Shown here in pieces: positions 50,797 through 64,000 of a DNA stretch of 64,000 nt. The notes beneath the pieces are model-generated. The model did not search any database and was not told the DNA's origin. It saw nothing but the letters and a program-made list of their open reading frames with translations. The DNA comes from Aurantiochytrium sp. KH105 (taxonomy: Eukaryota > Sar > Bigyra > Thraustochytrida > Thraustochytriidae), in contig BGKB01000213.1 in assembly GCA_003116975.1 (NCBI GenBank), positions 43,217 through 107,216 of the forward strand, read 5' to 3'. The position numbers and the translations under genes are program-made. Within the stretch, counting starts at the first letter, position 1. Every line of letters begins with the position of its first letter.

Positions 50797-51741
50797 ATGG
50801 TGCTCTCGTACAGACACGCGTTCCACGCGGGAAACCGCGGGGATGTCTTCAAGCATGCGGTGATGCTGGACCTGCTGCGCGCAGAGATCGCGGCGAGGGC
50901 GAGAACGAGGGTCGTGGAGACGCACGCCGGCGCCGGGCTCTACGCGCTGCGGTCCGGCAAGGCCGACGAGCGCCGCGAGTGGGCGCAGGGCATCGGCAAG
51001 GCGTGGGACGCGTTTGCGGCAGACGTGGCCCGCAGCGGCGGCCATGGCGACGACGCGGAGGCAAAGCAATCTCCTGGGCCACTTCAGGAACTCGTGCGGC
51101 ACGTGGCGCAGTTCAACAACTCGAAAAAACGGCAGCGACTGGACTTGTATCCGGGGTCACCGTTGCTCACGTTGCAAATGCTTCGCGACCAAGACGAGGC
51201 GGTCTTTTACGAGCTGCACGCCTCGGACATGCCTGTGCTTCAGTGGCACTGCGCCTCGCCTGGCAGGCACGTTTTGAAAAATGGTCCAAAGATTGAGCTC
51301 GGGGACGGCCTTGCAGGTCTGCGGGCCGAGGCAACGAGGGCAGACCTTGAAGGTTGCACTCTGGCCTTCATCGATCCCCCGTACGAGGTGAAATCAGAGT
51401 ACAATGAGGTGGCGCGCTGCGTTCTCGCTTGTGCCGCTGCCAACGCCTCCATGACGATTGCTCTTTGGTATCCGCTCATCCTGGGCATGGATCGCGCGGA
51501 AACCATGGTGCAGTCCCTTTGCGAAAGCCTCAAGACCCCTTGGGTGGACGTGCGTGAGCAAGCTCCGAACGAGGGCGCTGGCCTCGAGCGCGGCATGTGG
51601 GGCTCGGGCGTGCTGGTCGTGAACCCGGATTCCACATGGTTGGCCCAGGCCGGACAATTCGGCGATCGCCTCGGTCGCGACGCCGCGCAGGCCTTTGGAT
51701 CCGATCACGTCGTCAGGCTAACTCTTTCGCCACAAGTTTGA
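50797..51741 (+). CDS. RlmJ-type 23S rRNA adenine-2030 N6-methyltransferase, 314 aa
   Basis: The bacterial RlmJ family methylates adenine 2030 (E. coli numbering) of 23S rRNA. The N-terminal signature YRHAFHAGNRGDVFKH and the cofactor region VVETHAGAGLYALRS are clear, and the catalytic DPPY is at 193-196 (FIDPPYE). Also present: LYPGSPLLTLQMLRDQD. It starts in register with the bacterial enzymes and has no targeting presequence, so import into an organelle is not obvious. Length 314 versus about 280, through small insertions. A bacterial-type gene in a eukaryotic neighbourhood suggests horizontal or organelle-derived origin. Its codon use resembles its neighbours, so the transfer is not recent. 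Convergent with the ACAD11-like gene. Confidence 0.92.
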   Translation: MVLSYRHAFHAGNRGDVFKHAVMLDLLRAEIAARARTRVVETHAGAGLYALRSGKADERREWAQGIGKAWDAFAADVARSGGHGDDAEAKQSPGPLQELVRHVAQFNNSKKRQRLDLYPGSPLLTLQMLRDQDEAVFYELHASDMPVLQWHCASPGRHVLKNGPKIELGDGLAGLRAEATRADLEGCTLAFIDPPYEVKSEYNEVARCVLACAAANASMTIALWYPLILGMDRAETMVQSLCESLKTPWVDVREQAPNEGAGLERGMWGSGVLVVNPDSTWLAQAGQFGDRLGRDAAQAFGSDHVVRLTLSPQV

Positions 51742-51927
51742 GGCCTCGGGGAGCGGAATATTATTCTCAAGGCAGAGGCAAATGGGCGCTCTCAATTATT
51801 TATCTTCCATGAACAGAGACTGTGACAGCAAGTCGGTAGGCATACATGATTTATCGTTTTGGAGAGCTTTTTGTGCTGAATTGAAATTGAAAACGGAGAT
51901 GACTTTTACTTTTGTTGGGTAAAATAA

Positions 51928-54321
51928 TTAAAGCTTGCTGGCAGACTTGGCCTTGGCGTTGACCATCTCGCGCGCGCGCAGCTCGAGCTTGGCAACAGTC
52001 TCGCGATGAACTTCGTCAGGTCCGTCCATGTAGCGCACGGTGCGCGTTCGTGCATACCAGGAAGCAAGAGGAAACTGCCACGAGACGCCAATGCCGCCGT
52101 GGACCTGCATGGCCTTGTCCATGACCTCGAGCGCCATGCGCGGGGCCTCGACCTTGATCATGGAAATGTACTTGCGCGCAGCCTTGGAACCAAGCGAGTC
52201 AATGGCGTGGGCCGCACGCAGCGTGAGGAGCCGGGTCTGGTCGATGGCGATGCGACAGTCGGCAATGTCTTTGCGGATGGTACCCATCGCGGAGAGCGTC
52301 GAGCCAAAGGCACTGCGTGAGAGCGCGCGATCGAGCAAGAGCTCGAGGGAACGCTCGGCCAGACCAATTGTGCGCATGCAGTGGTGAATGCGGCCGGGGC
52401 CCAGACGAGCCTGGGCAATCTCAAAGCCAGTGCCCTCTTTGTAAAGGAGATTCGTGACGGGAACACGGACATTATCGAGGGTAAGCTCGAGATGGCCATG
52501 CGGGGCGTCGTCATACGCAAAGGCGGTCATGGGGTTGGAAAAGGAAATGCCCGGGGCATCTGCAGGCACGATCACTACAGAGTGACGCTTGTGACGCGGC
52601 AGCTTGCTGCGGTCCGCGGCATTCATCGAGGTGTCGCCCAGCACGAGAAGGACACCGAGACGAGGATCGCCGCCGTTTGAAATCCAGTGCTTCTTTCCGT
52701 TGATGACGTACTCGTCGCCTTGGCGGCGAATTTCGGTCGAAATATTCACGGCATCCGAGGATGCGACCTGCGGCTCAGTCATGACAAAGGCGCTTCGAAT
52801 CTTGCCGTCCTTGAGAGGATCGAGCCAAGCCAGCTTTTGTTCGTCATTGGCAAACAGGTGCAGCGTCTCCATGTTGCCTGTGTCGGGGAACTGGCAGTTG
52901 AAGACCTCGGCGGCCCACAAGTTGCGCCCCATCACCTCGGCCATGGCAGCATATTCGGCCTGCGTAATGCCGCCGAACTCCTCGAGGAAAAGGTTCCAGA
53001 GTCCCGCGGCCTTGGCACGCGTCTTGAGGTCCTCGACAATGGGAGGAATTTGCCACGGGTTACCCGCCTTGCGAAAGGCGGCCATTTGACGCTCGTACAC
53101 GGGCTCGGCTGGGTAGACTTCGTCCTCCATGAAGCGCTCGAGGCGACGCAAGATGACGGCGGCGCGCGAAGAAAGTGGCGGTGGCAGCACGTTTGCCCCC
53201 AGCTCGGTCGTCTCGGCCTTGAGCGCCTCCTCGAGCGTATCAGGCACACCCGCGAGGCCGGCGGTGCTGGCGGCGGCATGGGCCAACTGGAAAATGAAGT
53301 CGGCGGTAAAATCTTTGGCGGACGAAGACGCCGCGTTGCCGCGTAGAAAGCGTCCTCGGATGCCCCCAATAATGCACGCAACGCGGAAGCGCGCATAAGT
53401 ATTGTAGACCTGCATGTTGGGAATTGGGTAGGAAAAGTCGCGGCTCCGCTGGCAGTAGCGCCACACCAGGGACTCGAAGGGGGGGATGCCGCGCGGGAGC
53501 GTGCCGTCACGCGCATAGGGGCCCGCAACCAGACCACGCAAGTTGGGCGTTTTGAAGCTGGTGAAGCAGTACGCGAGGTCTGCAAGGGGGTCGCCCAGTG
53601 TGACGATTTCCCAGTCGAGGACGGCCACGATTTCCGGCTTGGTAGGATGGAAAATGACATTGTCGAGCTTGTAGTCGCCATGCACGATGCAGGTGCGCTT
53701 TTCCGGCTCGATGCGAGCCTCGAGCCACTTTTTCACGCGCAGCATAACTTGTTCGCTGATAGCGTCCTTGTCGCTGTCCTTGTTTTCAATGGCGCTCTCC
53801 GAGTAGTTGCGGTGCCAGGTTTTCACCTGGCGCGCAACGTAGTTGCCGCGGCGCTTAGAAAGCCAGCCGAGGCCGAGCTTGTCCGGGTCCATACGGTGCA
53901 GCTGGAGCATGACGTCAACGAGGGCGCCGTACATGGCGGACCGGTCCGCGGGGGAGACCCCGGGGAGCGTCATGTCTCGGAAGACGCGACCCTCGACGAA
54001 GCGCATAATGTAAAAGTCCGTGCCCAGGAAGCCCGGATCCTCGCAGTACACGATGGGTTCTGGGACGGGAAAGTTTTGCTTGTAGAGGACGTCGAGCACC
54101 TTGTACTCGCGCTGCACATTGTGCGCCCCAGGCAGCAACTGGCCAGCGGGTCGCTTGCGGACGACAACGCTCTCGCCTGCTTTGCCGCGCGTCAGCGTCA
54201 CCTTGAACGTAGGGTTCGACTGTCCATCGTCGAAGCGCTCCACGGCCGCGCCCTGGAGCCTGCCGGTCAGTGCGGTCACGTTCGCCTCCTCTACGAAGCG
54301 CGCCAGCGCCGCGAGATCCAT
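51928..54321 (-). CDS. ACAD11-like fusion: aminoglycoside-phosphotransferase-type kinase plus acyl-CoA dehydrogenase, 797 aa
   Basis: ACAD10/11 proteins carry a kinase-like APH domain fused to an acyl-CoA dehydrogenase and act on 4-hydroxy acids. Residues about 1-370 hold the APH domain: [15 protein letters not shown], the Brenner motif [14 protein letters not shown] (His214, Asp216, Asn221) and VAVLDWE. Residues about 390-797 hold the dehydrogenase: [61 protein letters not shown] and [18 protein letters not shown]. The C-terminal Ser-Lys-Leu is a canonical peroxisomal signal. I start at 54321 (G at -3 and +4), close to the family start. An upstream in-frame ATG at 54561 would add 80 Arg/Ala/Gly-rich residues. 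Confidence 0.94.
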
Positions 54322-54353
54322 CGCCCTCGAGCTCGAGCTTGACCTCGTGCGGG

Positions 54354-54355
54354 TC

Positions 54356-54388
<33 letters not shown>

Positions 54389-54393
54389 GCACC
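54354..54393. repeat. (TCCTGC)n tract near ACAD11 start
   Basis: About six copies of a TCCTGC-type hexanucleotide just 5' of the chosen start; read on the minus strand in frame it would give Gly-Ala repeats. Confidence 0.85.
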
Positions 54394-56297
54394 TGCTGAA
54401 GCGAGCGCGGCCGGCCGGTCGATGCGGTTCTGGGCATCCGCCCCGCCCGCCCGCCGCGCGCCCGCTCGAGGCGCGTCGCGATTGAGGCGGCCTTGGATTG
54501 GACCGGGGCAGCGGACTGACAGGATCCCTGACCGACCCCTCCGCCGCGTCCCGACTACCATGATACCGGTACCGTGCCATGGTACCACCGTCTGTCTACG
54601 AGCAGAGCGGAGCAGAGCGGAGCAGCCGCCGGCGTCGAGTGCAGCGAGCGCGCGCGCGTGCGCGGGCGGAGAGGGCGAGTCGGGGAAGAGCAACGGACGG
54701 GGAGATGAGATGGCGGGCGACCAAGCGCAGCAGAGCCGTGGTCCATCGCTGCTGCTGCAGCCGCCGGTAGCAACACAGCTGCAGTGCAAGGATGGCTCTG
54801 CTCTGCAGGGCGGAGGGGACAGGCAGCGTCTTCGAGCGAGCCTGGCAGCTTGCGCAGCCGAGGGATGAAGGATCCTGGGCCGACTCGGCTCCCCGACGCA
54901 GCCACGCAATATCCCACTGCGCGTCCTCGGTCATGGTGGCCGGGGTGGCATCGGCCGGCCGGCGAGGCGGCGCACGTGGAAGATAAAGCCCAGGCGAGGT
55001 GTGCCCGAACGACAGAACTCGTGTCCGACGGCTCCAAGTTGCATGTTCCGGGTCTAGGAATCGAAGAGGGGGTGATGCACGCAGCTGTAACAGATGCGCT
55101 CACGACAGGATCCGAGCGAGTGCGAGGCGAGTGCGGGGCGATACAGCAGCTGCAGAGGGGGGAGATGCACGCAGTTGCGCGCAGATAGGACATGGTTTGG
55201 GGGTAAAAGCTTTTCTCTAAGACCGCAACAGATGATGGCGCGTCAAGTCCGACATCCTCGTTCTCTTGCTGTTTAACCACTTTTGCGGTCATGACCCGAA
55301 AAAGACCCAATGGCGAAGCGCTCGCTCCAGCGGAATCACGAGGTCTTGCCACATTCGGCGCCGCCGAACAAAGTAAGTCATGAATGAAGAAGATGCAGCT
55401 GAAAGAGAATTTGATCCCATATAAGTCCTCCATGGCAACCCAATTGCACACGACAACCGTTTGTTCAATGGCATCCAGGGTGAATTAAAAAAAAAATGTT
55501 GCTACCGGCTCGCTTCTAAAAAGCAACGTCCTTGCGGTGTGGACATGACTCACATACTGTTCCAGATGTTGTTCCGAAGTGGATGGAGCTCAAAATGAAT
55601 AGAATCAGCTCCAAAAAGTAAGTTTTTGAGTTTGCCTTTCTACTCAACATGTACGCAGACGTGCGCAAAGCTGTGACAGCCAGATGAATGAGGCGCCATC
55701 GTGTCGACACATAAACGGTCGAGGCACACACCTTAGCGGATGTGTGCGTGCGCATGTGCGCGCAGGCTCGTCCACCCGCTGAGGTGTAGACGTCGAAGTA
55801 GACAATATTCTAAAAGCAAGCCGCACCACGAGTTTGAGCTAGGCATAGGGTTTCGTCAACCAAATGCATGGCCCAGCCGTACGTGCGGCAATTCCAAAAC
55901 TAAGTCATCTTCACATGTCCAATACATCGCTGGGTTCTCAGAAATTGCGCCTCACATGTGCTTTTAAAAAATAAATAGCGACAAGTTCTTGTTTTACAAT
56001 TTGCATTTATCAACTTTCCTTTGTTTTCTCCGCCCTCCCCCACAAAAAGAAGGCGAGAAGTGCCTTCTTTTGTCCGCAAGAGAAAACATTGTACATCGGA
56101 GTTAGACTTGCTCTTGTCGTATGACCCATCTCATTAAGGTCTCCGACTTTACTTGCATCCCGGCGAGAACGTGGTTCGACGATTCCTGGCGATGATCAAA
56201 ACCCGATTCTCCAACGTCACGTGCAAGTTTAGATTGGTGTGGTGAGGCGATATGTTGTCAACGCAGCTTCCATTCTGTAGCACTGTAACGTATACAT

Positions 56298-56405
56298 AAA
56301 GTTTTGAACCTTTATGGATCTAAATTTGCACAAGAAGATTTTGAACCTTTGTGGGTCTAAATCGCACATGAAGTTTTGGACCTTTGTGGGTCTAAACTCC
56401 ATAAG
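56298..56405. repeat. 35-37-bp imperfect tandem repeat, three copies
   Basis: The core AAGTTTTGAACCTTTGTGG followed by GTCTAAA recurs three times, with TTTTG cores at 56302, 56339 and 56374 (spacing 37 and 35). Copies differ by a few bases. Confidence 0.85.
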
Positions 56406-59238
56406 GCGATATGGATCTTCGGGGCCTAATTCCAAGAAAGAATTCAAATTTCTAAAGTGCATCTTTAGGCAGCCTTTGGGATGTGTAGTACCACGCTCTT
56501 ACGAATCAAGTGTACAGACACACATTGATTTATAGGTACACTTCCTAGACTCGTCGCTGAGAATGTTATCTGAAGTAAGACGCAGCATTTTTCGTTGCTT
56601 TTGACGCTAGCTGACACAATGCCCGCACTTGGCTCTCGTCATGGGTGCTTGTCGACTTGCAGGTGGGGAGCTGCTCAAAACGTCAAGCTCTGCCTCTTTG
56701 CGTCAAACTAGCTCAGCGCGTCACGATAGGTTTCGAATCTTGGCCAAAAGTCATTGAGATCTTCGGGGTCTGAGGAAAATTCACCACTTTACACGAACTT
56801 CCAACGCCTTGACTGATTTGCTAGACGATGTCGCCGCAGAGGAGCGCTCCCTATCAATTAAACCACGTGTCCATTTCTCCACGCCGGAGCTTCTCATCTA
56901 TCGATCTCAATACCTCGTGGTTCGCACCGCCCTCGCCCCAATCTTGCGGAAGCAAAGCTTCGAAGTGAGAAATGCCCGAGAGGTTGCATTCGTGTTGCAT
57001 ATCCCGCCGCTTCAGCGACGAAGTCATGCCCATCTCCTAGAGGCTAGCACTCGCCAGGCCCTCTTCGTGGAAGGCCCTCAGGTCACCACGAAGCTCCACA
57101 GCTGAAGTAGCCAGCCCAAAAGAACCCTCGCCACCTCTTCAGGAACGCGCTGGCGTCGGCGCGATGAAAGTAGGCCTACTTGGCATTTGCAAGTGCGTCA
57201 TGACCTTTGTTATTTTCAAGTCCAAATCCGCCGCGCAGGAGACCCGCTGCGGTGTGATGCGATGCCAATAGCGGCTGTCACGTCAGCATCGGCGCGCAGT
57301 TCATTCCTTGCTTTTCTGCAGGCCGAGCTTGGCGCCGCGCCGGACGGGCCACTGCGCGATGACGGGCTGTGAAAAACCCACATAAGCGGAGTAGATTTCA
57401 AAGTCGTCGCCGTCGCGTTGAGCAGGACGGGGTCGCACTGCACGGCGCGCTGCAGCGAGTTCGCCATCCTTGTTGATGAGTTGTAGTTGACACGCTCGCC
57501 ATCTTGGTCTCGTTTGGTACGCGTCGCGAGTGCGCGTAGGGAAGATAAGGCCGGAGAAGTGGGACTAGGGGCCCCGGCCACGCGCGATGCAAAGTGATGA
57601 GAGGGAGGCTTCTCTTGAAGCCTGTTGAATACGTGCATTTCTAGCAGATTCGACCCTTAACTTGACGAACAGATGATGATCACCTTGCAAGACGCCGCGC
57701 AGACACCACGCCGCGCAGGCAGGCAGGCACACCTGATGCGCAAGCTTGGCGGACGGTGTCGCAAGCCTAGTGGTGCCCAAACGCGTGCAAGGGGCGCGCT
57801 CATCACAGTTCCCTGCGCAGAATCTCGCCGCTGGGAACAGCTTGGAGATCGAGCCGACAATGATGCGTGCGGGTGCTGATGGCGCGAGCAACGAGAGGCG
57901 GGGAGGCCAAGACGCGGCTGTAACGATGGAGACTCGCGCTCCGAGAAGTCTGCTCCGCGCTGCCCGACGACTTGAGTTTTGGACTGAACAGGAGCAAGCA
58001 AGAATGAAAGACCACCGCAGCGTCCCGGACGCTGGGAGAAACGCTTACGGTGCGCGTCACGTCAAGCCTGCAGTCACGCTGCCTGCAAGTTTATACTTTG
58101 TGAAAGTCGATGTTTAAGCCGATGCTGGCGGCCAAGCAGGGTTCAGGTCAATGAGTCGATGCGGCCACGATCGCTCGCTTTGCGATCATAGTGTCAAACG
58201 CGCAGCGATCAAAATGCCTGCGCCCAACATTCCGGATCAGCGAGAAATCATTGCAAGGAGGACCGCCGTCATGCGCTGCGTCATGCGTACTGTGTCCTCT
58301 GAGGCGTCAAACCTGTTGTCGCCTGCAGTGTTGCTCTGCCTTTTGGGGCATACTTAGACAAGACAGCAGCGCGAGGGCGAAGTAGCTTCTTTCAGTAGGT
58401 ATGTGCCACACGAGCGCCGGCCTCGGTGTCGACTCTAAGAAACTGTTCAGGCCAGCGCCGAAGTGTCATTCACCTATGTCACGCTTACGGGTACGATCAG
58501 CCAAGTACACTTTTTGTAGCAGTTGATGCGATGGAATGAGAGGCAGAGCCACTGCAGAAACGGAACTCGAGGCTGGCCGTGGCTAGATGGGTCAAATTCA
58601 GTCGAGAATTGGAGGCGCTCAGAGCAAGTCGGTCCCAATCAGCCTCCGCGCAACGTGTTGCCAGATCCATTATTGTAATTTGAGTCATGATGCCGCGGGA
58701 TTACTTGCGCGCCTCTTTCATGCCAGCCAAACCTTCTTCGCGCTCCCATCCTTGAAGAAGTGAACGCCGATCTGACGACAAAGCACTCTTGCAGATGACA
58801 CTCGAAAAATTCGGCAGACGGAGGATTAAGTTGCTACTGTCATGGCAAGGTAAGTGCCGGCAGTCTCTCAAAGATGGTCCTCGTGACATTACCAGTTGGA
58901 AACTCTTGTCATCAGCAAAAGATTGCTTGAGGTGCGCTCTCCTCGCAATTGTGGTCACGCCATCGGAGATTTGTGCCGCCGCATCTCCCGTCCCCCGTCT
59001 CCCGAGGACAGAAAAAGCTTCGTGGATCCAACCACCTTCGAACTATCGCAGCTTTATAAAACGTTATTTTCTTGTTCTGTTGCGGCGCGTGCAACAAATA
59101 AAGACCGAGGAAAGAACAAAAAAAAACAAAAGATTATAAGTGGAATATTATTACTGCGTCGCACGCAATAAGTGATCACAAACAGTTAAGGTCGGTCGCC
59201 CATGCAGGCATGGCACACGGTAGCGCAAAGCCACACGA

Positions 59239-62200
59239 TTAGGTCTCAGGTTCGTTTCCTTGGACATGCAAGATGTGTACCATCCCGCTAACGTCGCCAA
59301 CAACGTAAACACTTCCCTGGCGAGCTGTGTTCCAGATTGCGTGATCCGTCGTGAAGCCTATGCCTCCGCTAAGCTTCAGATGCGTTCGATTCTCAACGTT
59401 CATCAAAGTGTGTGTCGCAGATGTAGTCGATGCCTCCACTTCATCCGCGTCGAGTGCCTCGCCCGTTTGAGCGTTCCAGTAGCGAGTCTCAAAGCCTGAC
59501 TGTGATACAATGGTGTCGCCCTGTATCGCCACGCTGCTGACGACATCAGAGTGCCCCTTCATCACGTGCTGCTTCTTGCCCGACGTAGCGTTCCAGATGC
59601 GCACCGTCTTGTCCCAGGACCCACTGACGATGGTGTCGCCCTGTATCGCCACACTCAAGACAACATCAGAGTGCCCCTTCAACACGTGCTGCTCCTCGCC
59701 CGACGTAGCGTTCCAGATGCGCACCGTCTTGTCATAGGACCCACTGACGATGGTGTCGCCCTGTATCGCCACACTCAAGACAGCATCAGAGTGCCCCTTC
59801 AACACGTGCTGCTCCTCGCCCGACGTAGCGTTCCAGATGCGCACCGTCTTGTCCCAGGACCCACTGACGATGATGTCGCCCTGTATCGCCACGCTGTAGA
59901 CCGGATGAGAGTGCCCCTTCAACACGTGCTTCTCCTCGCCCGACGTAGCGTTCCAGATGCGCACCGTGTTGTCATCGGAACCACTGACGATGGTGTCGCC
60001 CTGTATCGCCACGCTCAAGACCCAATCAGAGTGCCCCTTCAACACGTGCTGCTCCTCGCCCAACGTAGCGTTCCGGATGCGCACCGTGTTGTCCGAGGAC
60101 CCACTCACGATGGTGTCGCCCTGTATCGCCACGCTGTTGACCGCATTAGAATGCCCCTTCAACTCGTGCTGTTCCTCGCCCGACGTAGCGTTCCAGATGC
60201 GAACCGTTCCGTCATCGGACCCACTGACGACGGTGTCGCTCTGTATCGCCACGCTGTTGACCCGACCAGAGTGCGCCTTCAACACGTGCTGCTCCTCGCC
60301 CGACGTAGCGTTCCAGATGCGCACCGTCTTGTCATAGGACCCACTGACGATGGCGTCGCCCTTTATCGCCACGCTGTAGACGTAATGAGAGTGCCCCTTC
60401 AACACGTGCTGCTCCTCGCCCGACGTAGCGTTCCAGATGCGCACCATCTTGTCCGAGGACCCACTGACGATGGTGTCGCCCTGTATCGCCACACTCCTGA
60501 CGCAATCAGAGTGCCCCTTCAACACGTGCTGCTCCTCGCCCGACGTAGCGTTCCAGATGCGCACCGTGTTGTCATCGGACCCACTGACGATGGTGTCGCC
60601 CTGTATCGCCACACTCAAGACAGCATTAGAGTGCCCCTTCAACATGTGATGCTCCTCGCCCGACGTAGCGTTCCAGATGCGCACCGTTTTGTCATAGGAC
60701 CCACTGACGATGATGTCGCCCTGTATAGCCACGCTGTTGACCCGATGAGAGTGCCCCTTCAAAACGTGCTGCTCCTCGCCCGACGTAGCGTTCCAGATGC
60801 GCACCGTGTTGTCCCAGGACCCACTGACGATGGTGTCGCCCTGGATTGCCACGCTGTAGACCTCACTAGTGTGCCCATTCAACACGTGCAGCAAGAGGTC
60901 ACGGGGATGAACAAGGGTGACGCGAGTAGGCTCCAGCCATGGCTGATCAGGTGTTTGCAGACCACGTGCCAAGGGACCTTTTGAGTCGTGCCCAAGACGC
61001 GCCAGAACTTGCGACGCAAGTTCGTTGGGATCGTAGCTGAGGGCATGCACTGCTTTGCTCAGGAAGCGAGGCGTATCACTTTCGGACGCAGAGTAGATGC
61101 CGAGTTCGACGCAGTCGCGAATGAGATTTTCGATTGTGGCGCGCCTTTGCGCTTCATCGTCACCGACAGAGATGGTGCTCTGTACCCATGCAAAGTCATT
61201 CAGGAGCTCGAAAGCCTCAGCGTGCTCGCCGCTCTTGACGAGGTGAAAGACGGCGTGACGGAGCGCAAAAACGTCATCCCGCGAGCTGCTACAGTAGTCT
61301 GCCAATTGCTTATGCCCGTCTTTTTTCTTCACGAAGAGCTTTTTCCCGCTCTGCTTCTTATCTGAGAGCCAGTCTGCCATGCGCTTATGAATGAGTGCCA
61401 CTCGACCATCGCCGCCTTGATATAAGAGATTGCTCGCGTCGTCGACAATATCATCAATATCATCTGGATCTAATTGCAGAACTGCGCTAAGTTGCTCGAC
61501 ACTGAGCGGTTCATAAGCAGCTAGGATTGGCGCCAGCAGCGTCTTGTACGTCTTCTCCCCGCCAACTTTTTCTTGCAGGCGCTCAAAATACTCTTTGAAC
61601 ATGCCGCCAAGCCCATTGGGGATGGCGTCTTTGTGAGAGATGTCCTGCAAGGTCAGCAGTCCACCTTGTTTCTCCTCGTGCATCCGGTTCAGGGTCTCGG
61701 GAAGGAAGCTCGCCCAGAGAAAGAGACCTTCGGATCGTTCGGAAAGAATCCTGGCGCAAGAAGCAACGTCCCTTTGATCCACGGTNTCTGCCATGCGCTT
61801 ATGAATGAGTGCCACTCGACCATCGCCGCCTTGATATAAGAGATTGCTCGCGTCGTCGACAATATCATCAATATCATCTGGATCTAATTGCAGAACTGCG
61901 CTAAGTTGCTCGACACTGAGCGGTTCATAAGCAGCTAGGATTGGCGCCAGCAGCGTCTTGTACGTCTTCTCCCCGCCAACTTTTTCTTGCAGGCGCTCAA
62001 AATACTCTTTGAACATGCCGCCAAGCCCATTGGGGATGGCGTCTTTGTGAGAGATGTCCTGCAAGGTCAGCAGTCCACCTTGTTTCTCCTCGTGCATCCG
62101 GTTCAGGGTCTCGGGAAGGAAGCTCGCCCAGAGAAAGAGACCTTCGGATCGTTCGGAAAGAATCCTGGCGCAAGAAGCAACGTCCCTTTGATCCACGGTA

Positions 62201-63971
62201 TCTTTCATGTCGCACAGCATACGCTCGATGTGCTTTTCGATGTCGCAAAAGTGTTCTGTTCGTCCTTGAGCTCCAGCACTCTAAAATCAAGTCTGTTGTT
62301 GGTGATGCTGCGCTGGATCTCGCCTTCGGGACGTGTGCTCACAACCAAGCTGAGCCATGCCGGCATCGCGTCCTTCCACGTGCGAATGACCTTTCGCAAA
62401 ACATCGTCGCTTTTGCTGCACTCGTCGAGAGCGTCGAGCACGACCACTTGTCGCGTTTGATCTGAGCTGAGCTTGGTTGCAGGATTGACGAGAATGGTCT
62501 GAAATACGTCGGCCAGGGGCTTGTCGCGGATACTACCAAAGCTCTCGGAGTCCAGCGCATCGGCAAAGCCAGGCACGCTCTGACAGAGCTGCCATGCAAT
62601 GCTCATAAGAGCCACCGTTGGCACGGCAGCAGTGGGGACTTGATCATGCCGAAAGAAATGGTACGCCGCAACAAAAACAGGCGAGCGCTCTTTCTTGCTA
62701 CGACGCCACAAGCTACGTACACGTGACGACTTTCGGCGCGACTCGGCGCGTTCGTGTGCCTTGCTCTTTTCGACATCTTCATCAGTTTTCAGAGCGCCAC
62801 CGCGGTGGCAAAGCTCGGCCATGATGACGCTTTTGCCGATGCCGCCGTCGCCCACAAGAATGGAGACGGCACTCTGTTTCTTGTTGTACCAGGTGCAAAG
62901 CTCATCAATGATCCAGCTCCGCGTGCCGTCAGTGAAGCTTTCTGCTTTCTCTCTGGCCCATGCCTCGGAGCTGCAGGGGCGCAATCGAGGACGAATGCGG
63001 CACATGGCGGGTGTTAGATCTGACGAGGCCTCTGGGAACTTAATGCGTGACCATATTGTGCCGACAAGATGCGATATGGCTTCGTCCGTCAGTGTCGATA
63101 GATTATCGGGCGACTGTTTATTGAGAGCGAGCTGGAACTGCCCCTTCCATTGGGTCGTGGCATCGATCATGGTCGATTCCAACGCAGCGACCACAATCCG
63201 ATCTGCGCGGTTCTCGCGGGCGTCCAGAAAGTCTCGGACGCATTTCTCGCGGCGGTCTCCTCGGTTCACCTTGTCCATGTACCCCTCGGTTGCGAGGACG
63301 AGGAAAACCTTGGATAATGCAATACCTTGTGACACGCTCTCGTCGGCGCTTCGCACCCCCTGGTTTTCGTTAAGCCATACTTTCAAATCATGTTGGTCTT
63401 CGAGGCGCTTGGCGATCTCTTTTGCCATGTCGCACGCGTCCCTGTCGTATGAAATAAATGCATCAAAGATCTTGCGGAGGTACTTGCCGCTTCCTTTGTG
63501 TTGAATCTGGTCGAGAAGATGAGAAATGATGGCTGTTTCAGGCTCGCAAAAGTCGAATTGTACCTCGTCGGCCATACGATAGCTGATTGCGCTGTTCCAT
63601 GACTCTTGCAGGATCATGGCCTTGTCGACGACGACTGGAATGAGCGCATGGGGTAGCTTGCGAGCTACGACCTCGACGAGTGGTTTGTTCCACTGCAATG
63701 CTGCGCTCACTAGCATCGCGGCCACCTTGGCCACCTTGGCCTCCTCTTTTGCCTCTGCGACGTGGCTCGCAGTGCGCACTGGTAAGCTGAGGTGAGGTTG
63801 GAGCTTCCCGATCAAGTCTTTGGCTACTTGCTCATCTGCCGGGTCGTAGACCACGAGAAGGGCAACGCCCGCAGGCAGCACGCTTTCGATCGGCTCGTCT
63901 TCCGCGTCGGTGGTGGCTTCGTCGTCGTGTCCTCTGTAAAAGAGCGTGAGCAAGCGCGTCGCCCAACCCAT
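59239..63971 (-). CDS. TIR-NACHT-WD40 repeat receptor (HET-E/NLR-like); one frameshift and one N in the given sequence
   Basis: STAND-type receptor. Residues about 36-140 are a degenerate TIR-like fold; 168-285 a TIR domain (FDAFISYDRD, LKVWLNENQG, KVFLVLATEGY). NACHT follows: Walker A VGDGGIGKS (373-381), FVAAYHFFRHD, Walker B VVLDALDE (510-517) and LVVSTRPE. A helical segment (SEGLFLWASFL, YEPLSVEQLSAVLQLD) leads to 12 WD40 repeats of 40 residues and a degenerate C-terminal blade. The frame from ATG 63971 breaks at a four-base run at 62247-62250 and continues one frame over, so the given sequence encodes a 588-aa half and a second half. A 413-bp duplication flanks an N at 61786. Likely immune or self/non-self signalling; the stop is at 59239. 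I treat the breaks as likely assembly faults, but a real pseudogene is possible. Confidence 0.85.
59452..60885 (-). repeat. WD40 coding repeat: 12 tandem 120-bp units
   Basis: Twelve tandem 120-base units, each encoding a 40-residue blade (VLKGHSxxVxSVAIQGDTIV then SGSxDxTVRIWNATSGEEQH). Starting bases are spaced exactly 120 apart (60885 down to 59565). Long stretches are identical in nearly all units, including third codon positions. Variation is concentrated at blade positions 7, 8, 10, 24 and 26. Confidence 0.95.
61373..62199. repeat. 413-bp direct duplication with a single N between copies
   Basis: Positions 61373-61785 and 61787-62199 appear identical and are separated by one N at 61786. 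The period of 414 keeps the reading frame. This pattern is typical of two contig ends that overlap but were joined across a minimal gap. Confidence 0.93.
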
Positions 63972-64000
63972 GCTGGCCTCGCCCTGTCTTCCTTTCTTTC

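Follow-up and report, generated by a model that had tools for sequence, protein, structure and literature searches.

What kind of gene keeps a run of tandem repeats almost identical while letting a handful of codons in every repeat vary? The window examined here, a stretch of 64,000 nucleotides, raises this question with an array of twelve 120-bp units on its minus strand (59446-60885; tandem-repeat score 2081). A sequence-only reading had proposed that five columns of the unit are hypervariable while the rest is nearly constant, and this is confirmed: column 7 carries S/H/N/D/G, column 8 E/R/A/C/Y/W/P/V, column 10 Y/N/L/R/S, column 24 W/Y/D/S (G in unit 12) and column 26 N/K/G (E in unit 12), as it had listed them apart from these two residues of unit 12. 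Other codons are close to constant, with the exceptions of column 18 (T/I/A), column 11 (AGC and AGT in a ratio of 8:4) and scattered single changes. The twelve units it had counted are all there and units 1-11 are full, but unit 12 is degenerate and the gene is not one open frame.

Gene organisation and domain content

The array belongs to a minus-strand gene (59239-63998) encoding a TIR domain, a NACHT domain and twelve WD40 units of 40 residues (Table 1). The TIR_2, NPHP3_N/NACHT and WD40 matches all lie above the Pfam cut-offs, and a NACHT-type NTPase with a Walker A motif sits between effector and repeat domains, as in STAND or NLR proteins. TIR_2, NPHP3_N and NACHT were the only N-terminal Pfam matches, and no HET domain was found among them. 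The AlphaFold model of the TIR-NACHT part is poor outside the TIR domain (mean pLDDT 52), so no claim about the NACHT domain rests on it. Alternating strands and helices near the N terminus of this model weakly suggest what is perhaps a second, degenerate TIR-like fold, and the C-terminal tail, where the array model is unsure, is possibly a cryptic closing blade.

Table 1. Features of the receptor gene and its array in the window
Feature	Position	Strand	Evidence or remark
C-terminal tail, about 68 aa	59239..59445	-	Follows the array in many of the family genes fetched, with about 198-210 bp between array end and stop
Unit 12, degenerate closing unit	59446..59565	-	Last unit scores low in most family arrays
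Units 1-11, full-length WD40 units of 120 bp (40 aa) that are highly conserved among themselves	59566..60885	-	Pfam WD40 E 1.4e-96; AlphaFold beta-propeller
Linker, NACHT to array	60886..61776	-	60-93% aa identity in most near-full-length family matches; 40% in two distant ones
414-bp stretch in two copies, 99% identical, single N between them at 61786	61373..62203	.	Repeat search
Reading-frame break, NACHT part versus linker	62205..62260	-	NACHT part stops at 62205, next frame starts at 62220
NPHP3_N / NACHT NTPase, Walker A ILVGDGGIGKS	62334..62927	-	PF24883 E 8.1e-17; PF05729 E 3.1e-6
TIR domain (TIR_2)	63174..63458	-	PF13676 E 2.1e-8; structure match to SARM1, MyD88 and AbTir TIR folds
N-terminal alternating strand/helix region	63657..63866	-	Predicted model, pLDDT about 46-71

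This copy of the gene is broken, with a frame break and an N-flanked duplication, and it has Asp at the TIR position (63231-63233) where 20 of 21 parsed family genes have Glu. Among the matches of the linker search, a second copy of the 414-bp stretch is seen in the window gene alone; the direct duplication around the N is probably an unresolved assembly join. From its motif we take the Glu to be the catalytic residue of TIR NADases, present in 20 of 21 family genes (the pattern does not match L027) and replaced in the window copy. A protein of the thraustochytrid Hondaea fermentalgiana (P0001) likewise has Asp at this position, which makes the Asp probably an old feature of the lineage. Like the TIR NADases SARM1, AbTir and plant TIR-NLRs, these proteins have a TIR fold and, with the exception just described, Glu in the corresponding motif. 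Unlike them, the TIR domain is fused here to NACHT and WD40 domains and the window copy has Asp, and NADase activity is putative. The Walker A pattern GxxxxGKS is present in 22 of 22 family genes examined, and 18 of 22 match a stricter pattern. The GC content of the window is 57.5%.

A large family of related loci

The genome of the window (76.0 Mb in 367 contigs) holds many relatives of this gene. The TIR-NACHT part has at least 76 matches, which by hand count resolve into 59 loci at 45% identity or more and 8 more distant ones, while the linker has at least 75 and the array DNA at least 52. Open frames are the rule, with no internal stop in 75 of the 76 TIR-NACHT matches. Both haplotypes were probably assembled, so the roughly 59 loci would cover two haplotypes and the number of genes per haploid genome would be smaller. 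The nearest named proteins are those of H. fermentalgiana, which account for 12 of 13 TIR-NACHT protein matches at E <= 1e-10, the best at 88% identity, and are annotated as guanine nucleotide-binding protein subunit, TANC1 and similar. PMC8917795 credits Hondaea with 306 WD40 proteins against about 200 in other close species.

The arrays that were fetched represent part of the family: 54 loci, of which 47 contain three core units or more, 30 of the 47 having a mean unit identity of at least 0.85. Column counts omit units scoring below 95 (below 100 in the first set), that is closing units, long-loop blades and decayed units, and the distant arrays L029 and L030 are excluded from the statistics.

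Diversifying selection at five codons

Across 153 distinct units from 20 near-identical arrays, amino-acid entropy reaches 2.40, 3.65, 3.15, 3.15 and 1.93 bits at columns 7, 8, 10, 24 and 26, and is at most 0.98 bits at the other 35 columns. Selection was assessed by a tree-free count of nonsynonymous change per column (pN) over backbone pS, with a bootstrap over arrays (30 arrays, 222 units, 214 distinct). The ratio is 4.20 [3.41-5.14] at column 7, 6.39 [5.40-7.80] at column 8, 6.20 [5.17-7.60] at column 10, 6.16 [5.17-7.68] at column 24 and 3.78 [2.96-4.78] at column 26. The next highest value is 1.33 [1.02-1.75] at column 3, and point estimates at the other 34 columns are 1.04 or lower. An excess of nonsynonymous change is thus found at all five columns in these 30 arrays of one genome.

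Tree-based tests, whose tree assumption is violated by recombination of units, separate the columns further. When all columns share one synonymous rate, the five pass and the other 35 do not. With a synonymous rate of its own for each column, site-likelihood gives column 24 as passing correction and columns 7, 8 and 10 at p < 0.05, and column 26 shows no departure from neutral (p = 0.97). On a tree built from the 35 backbone columns, again with own synonymous rates, columns 7, 8, 10 and 24 pass and column 26 fails, its alpha lying above its beta (28.6 vs 13.4). Rates at columns 8, 10 and 24 reach extreme values in this test, so these codons carry almost no backbone-tree signal. On these sequence comparisons, selection is rated as strong at columns 7, 8, 10 and 24, whereas column 26 appears to change fast but with less certainty.

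The residues that fill the variable columns are also far from random. Compared with random codons, N (x6.9), Y (x4.7), W (x3.3), K (x3.3) and D (x2.8) are enriched, while A, V and I are depleted to about x0.2, a bias that would suit a binding face. The same five columns stand out elsewhere. For example, they are again the most variable in 17 less uniform arrays of the same genome, with more background. In 16 units from H. fermentalgiana (6 of 8 scanned proteins) they rank highest, with entropies of 3.50, 2.95, 2.77, 2.53 and 2.05 bits at columns 8, 24, 10, 7 and 26 and 1.19 at the next. The suggestion of Podospora-like diversifying selection therefore gains support, the five columns being highest both in the 30 arrays and in Hondaea. 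All 16 Hondaea five-residue codes are distinct, and 3 of the 16 are shared with the window's genome (unit 1 of the window array and the first unit of Hondaea P0101 have the same code), which indicates that some blades are old and persist between species.

Two further lines were followed and dropped: a synonymous hot spot beside the loops is unsupported by fourfold-site diversity (18 columns), and single-step changes could not be read from unit pairs one codon apart, as 1 pair in 153 units is too few.

Position of the variable columns on the propeller

In the AlphaFold model, four-stranded blades close into a beta-propeller, with strands a, b, c and d at about columns 9-15, 18-23, 27-32 and 38-2. 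Over residues 71-390 it matches an 8-bladed design, whose blade number need not be the real one. Columns 7, 8 and 10 fall at the d-a loop and where strand a begins, and columns 24 and 26 at the b-c turn. Sites at this loop and turn belong to the WD40 top face (PMC1805685), and by our mapping columns 8, 10 and 24 would be top-face binding positions. The sequence-only reading had placed the variable columns on one face; strand assignment on the model agrees, with all five mapping to one predicted face.

Blades also vary in loop length. Among 239 strictly matched blades, 222 have three residues between strands b and c and 16 have 8 or 9; three of these 16 are the same L025 blades found again in L062, and one holds an X in L065. 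The long b-c loop motifs are themselves variable (GGFFSTDN, GEFISTDN, GESFWSLDK), and the blades that carry them are scattered among normal ones (L015, L017, L025, L002, L013, L045, L047, L049). One d-a loop of L015 has 10 residues instead of the usual 5.

Homogenisation of units within and between loci

Units of the same gene are scarcely more alike than units of different genes. Distinct units differ at 3.87 of the five variable columns within genes and 4.04 between genes, and by 2.39 and 2.36 backbone synonymous differences (627 within-gene and 11001 between-gene pairs, exact copies excluded). Among 214 distinct units, 66 share one identical 35-residue backbone, and 203 distinct five-residue codes occur. 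Synonymous divergence falls towards the array: among 12 genes, pS in the TIR half (alignment columns 241-660) lies mostly at 0.36-0.64, against 0.13-0.29 just before the array, and pS in the units is 0.10 (30 arrays). Homogenisation acts both inside a locus and across loci, with five codons of each blade diversifying, and the concerted evolution that had been likened to that of Podospora is recovered here. Mutual information links columns 7-8, 7-10, 8-10 and 24-26 (uncorrected p 0.006-0.032), and none of the six column pairs across loops is linked (p 0.22-0.88), as expected if units also recombine internally.

Probable alleles and array pairs

The receptor adjoins an ACAD11-like gene (phosphotransferase-type kinase plus acyl-CoA dehydrogenase; 51928-54909). 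The stretch around this neighbour (51500-55581) has one other long match, on contig C307 at 94% identity, its other 24 matches being short, and the C307 counterpart adjoins family gene L025. The two receptors are 61.5% identical in the TIR-NACHT part and 86% in the linker. By visual count, which takes in the closing units, their arrays have 12 and 8 units, and they have zero five-residue codes in common. Between neighbour and receptor, positions 55581-58924 of the window are without a counterpart on C307 and hold a 35-bp tandem repeat (2.9 copies, 56294-56396).

A comparable case is the flank of the C40 gene, which is 99% identical to C235, where a family gene lies at the same place; here the receptors are 73% identical. 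By these alignments, window/C307 and C40/C235 are probable allele pairs whose receptors have diverged far more than their flanks. The search used the flanks of five loci with near-identical arrays, and a partner with a family gene was found for the window and C40. The matches of the C15 flank (86-88%) and the partial match of the C212 flank (97%) fall at places with no family gene among the matches listed, and the flank at C17:565 kb has no match above 72%.

Older arrays behave differently. Four haplotype-like older pairs keep their blade order. Their five columns show 19 changes in 225 codons and their backbone 110 in 1575, and synonymous changes number 125 in 1800 codons. With no excess at the five columns, diversification does not seem to be under way in every member. 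Flanks were examined for one of these pairs, C51/C123 (97% identity downstream, 84% over 638 bp upstream), whose receptor proteins are 89.5% identical. In a fifth older pair, L040/L041 (18 and 17 units), several units have been replaced. Three blades have been lost between C36 and C363, and seven between C17 and C104, although the flanks fall short of proving allelism.

Proposed function and alternative explanations

We put the probability at roughly 70% that the array serves as sensor in an intracellular TIR-NACHT-WD40 receptor of NLR-like (STAND) type, diversified in the manner of Podospora HNWD in a thraustochytrid-like protist with about 59 related loci. Each blade array would make a distinct binding face, and ligand binding to this face would open the NACHT switch. 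The opened receptors would then oligomerise, their TIR domains would act as an NAD-consuming or signalling effector, and this effector would kill or arrest the infected (or mixed) cell. New blade combinations would come from unequal exchange and from gene conversion between loci, and selection would retain new binding faces. Quite doubtful is a bolder version, an antibody-like repertoire in a unicellular stramenopile, in which scores of TIR-NACHT receptors would draw on a family-wide pool of blades. The loops, including the CDR-like b-c loops of 8-9 residues, would be reshuffled between loci faster than the backbone, consistent with alleles 61-73% identical beside neighbouring DNA at 94-99%, perhaps through actively regulated exchange or mutation and with clonal variation within a culture.

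As for the ligand, viruses infecting thraustochytrids have been described (PMC4512727, PMC8354545), which makes pathogen sensing the likelier class and allorecognition the second. Under allorecognition, the arrays would sense variants of a polymorphic self protein when cells fuse or mate, much as HET-C is read by HET-D/E in Podospora. The anatomy and selected columns are as in Podospora, and very divergent receptor alleles beside near-identical flanks would fit balancing selection. We nevertheless hold this unlikely: about 59 loci are many for such a set, we know of no fusion-incompatibility system in thraustochytrids, and the viruses offer another class of ligand.

Distinctly improbable is the idea that a local mutator, such as a diversity-generating retroelement or an activation-induced deaminase-like enzyme, writes the loop codons, with selection secondary. 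Estimated synonymous rates are also raised at columns 7, 8, 24 and 26, the entropy of codons given their amino acid is highest at column 8, and just 1 pair among the 153 distinct units differs by a single codon, all of which would suit a mutator. Yet fourfold sites next to the loops show no clear rise in synonymous diversity (18 columns; Spearman -0.49, p 0.04; grouped permutation p 0.31), the conserved V9 and D25 sit between variable codons, and amino-acid bias is strong at the variable columns. Moreover, NNY codons are the signature of adenine-templated change, and the third bases here are mixed, with no such pattern; saturated rates also make alpha unreliable.

The assembly breaks at family genes, and mixed reads from paralogues could yield chimeric units or false allele pairs. 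The duplication with its N is a case in point, and contigs C213, C284, C242, C1 and C351 end within or beside family members, so mis-joined contigs are possible there and blade number and order may be wrong. Illumina data are also reported to misassemble such arrays in Podospora (PMC12222747). Artefact is nevertheless very improbable as an explanation, given that codon-specific variation cannot arise from chimeras, that Hondaea proteins deposited under another genome show the same columns, and that 9-13 blades are kept in order in some array pairs. Scarcely credible is a relaxed tandem repeat, identical through recent duplication and unconstrained at five columns: tandem arrays often drift, the window copy is damaged and the four older pairs fit, but relaxation alone is insufficient to lift the variable columns about four- to sixfold above the synonymous level, as is seen in the near-identical arrays, residue bias is strong, and the same columns vary in Hondaea and in the 17 less uniform arrays.

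Comparison with known systems and significance

The closest parallel to the proposed receptor family is found in a fungus. In Podospora anserina HNWD genes, the selected codons 7, 9, 25 and 27 flank the conserved codons 8 and 26, one pair at the d-a loop and the other at the b-c turn (PMC1805685). Similarly, columns 8 and 10 flank V9 here and columns 24 and 26 flank D25, with column 7 as an addition, so the earlier matching of these columns to Podospora agrees in its flanking pattern, with the reservation that tests using own synonymous rates fail for column 26. HNWD/NWD genes (het-d, het-e, het-r) also combine NACHT with a C-terminal WD40 domain of high internal conservation, and evolve in concert within and between loci (PMC1805685). 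The window family differs from them in having a TIR and not a HET domain, a fifth selected column (7) and b-c loops of 8-9 residues, and in numbering about 59 loci, probably across two haplotypes, against 10 Podospora genes. Its unit has 40 residues, compared with 42 in the Podospora WD40 unit, and we know of no class of long b-c loop blades in Podospora. Its nearest named relative belongs to the thraustochytrids and not to the fungi.

WD40 NLRs with high internal conservation are known in fungi (PMC1805685, PMC4986451, PMC12222747). High conservation extends to WD, ANK or TPR repeats of other fungal NLRs: it is seen in about 16% of the repeats annotated in fungal NLRs, and selected positions occur in ANK and TPR repeats as well (PMC4986451). 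That source reports NLRs as restricted to filamentous fungi and missing from yeasts, whereas the closest named relative here is a unicellular protist. Highly repetitive WD40 proteins have also been described in prokaryotes (PMC5587647). Among the matches listed in the open-access literature, no paper described a family of this kind in thraustochytrids or other stramenopiles, and none dealt with thraustochytrid immunity. What is new relative to these systems is the lineage, the TIR effector, the large copy number, the fifth column and the long-loop blades.

These observations suggest that the Podospora solution, a frozen blade scaffold with a diversified face, is also present in a lineage of protists distant from fungi, with a TIR effector and many more loci. 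For the question of how ligands are read by a propeller face, the family is a natural test set, and for a group of protists in industrial use it is a candidate immune repertoire. It is also a possible exception to the view that NLR repertoires accompany multicellularity. If the ligands are viral, it would open up the immunity of thraustochytrids.

Two minor features of family loci deserve mention. The L035 array (contig C9) has a run of older, divergent blades between young, near-identical ones. At L026, a 748-bp repeat beside the family gene (about 774-1522) occurs at more than 30 places in the genome, most of them 100% identical, and is regarded as a young mobile or homogenised element.
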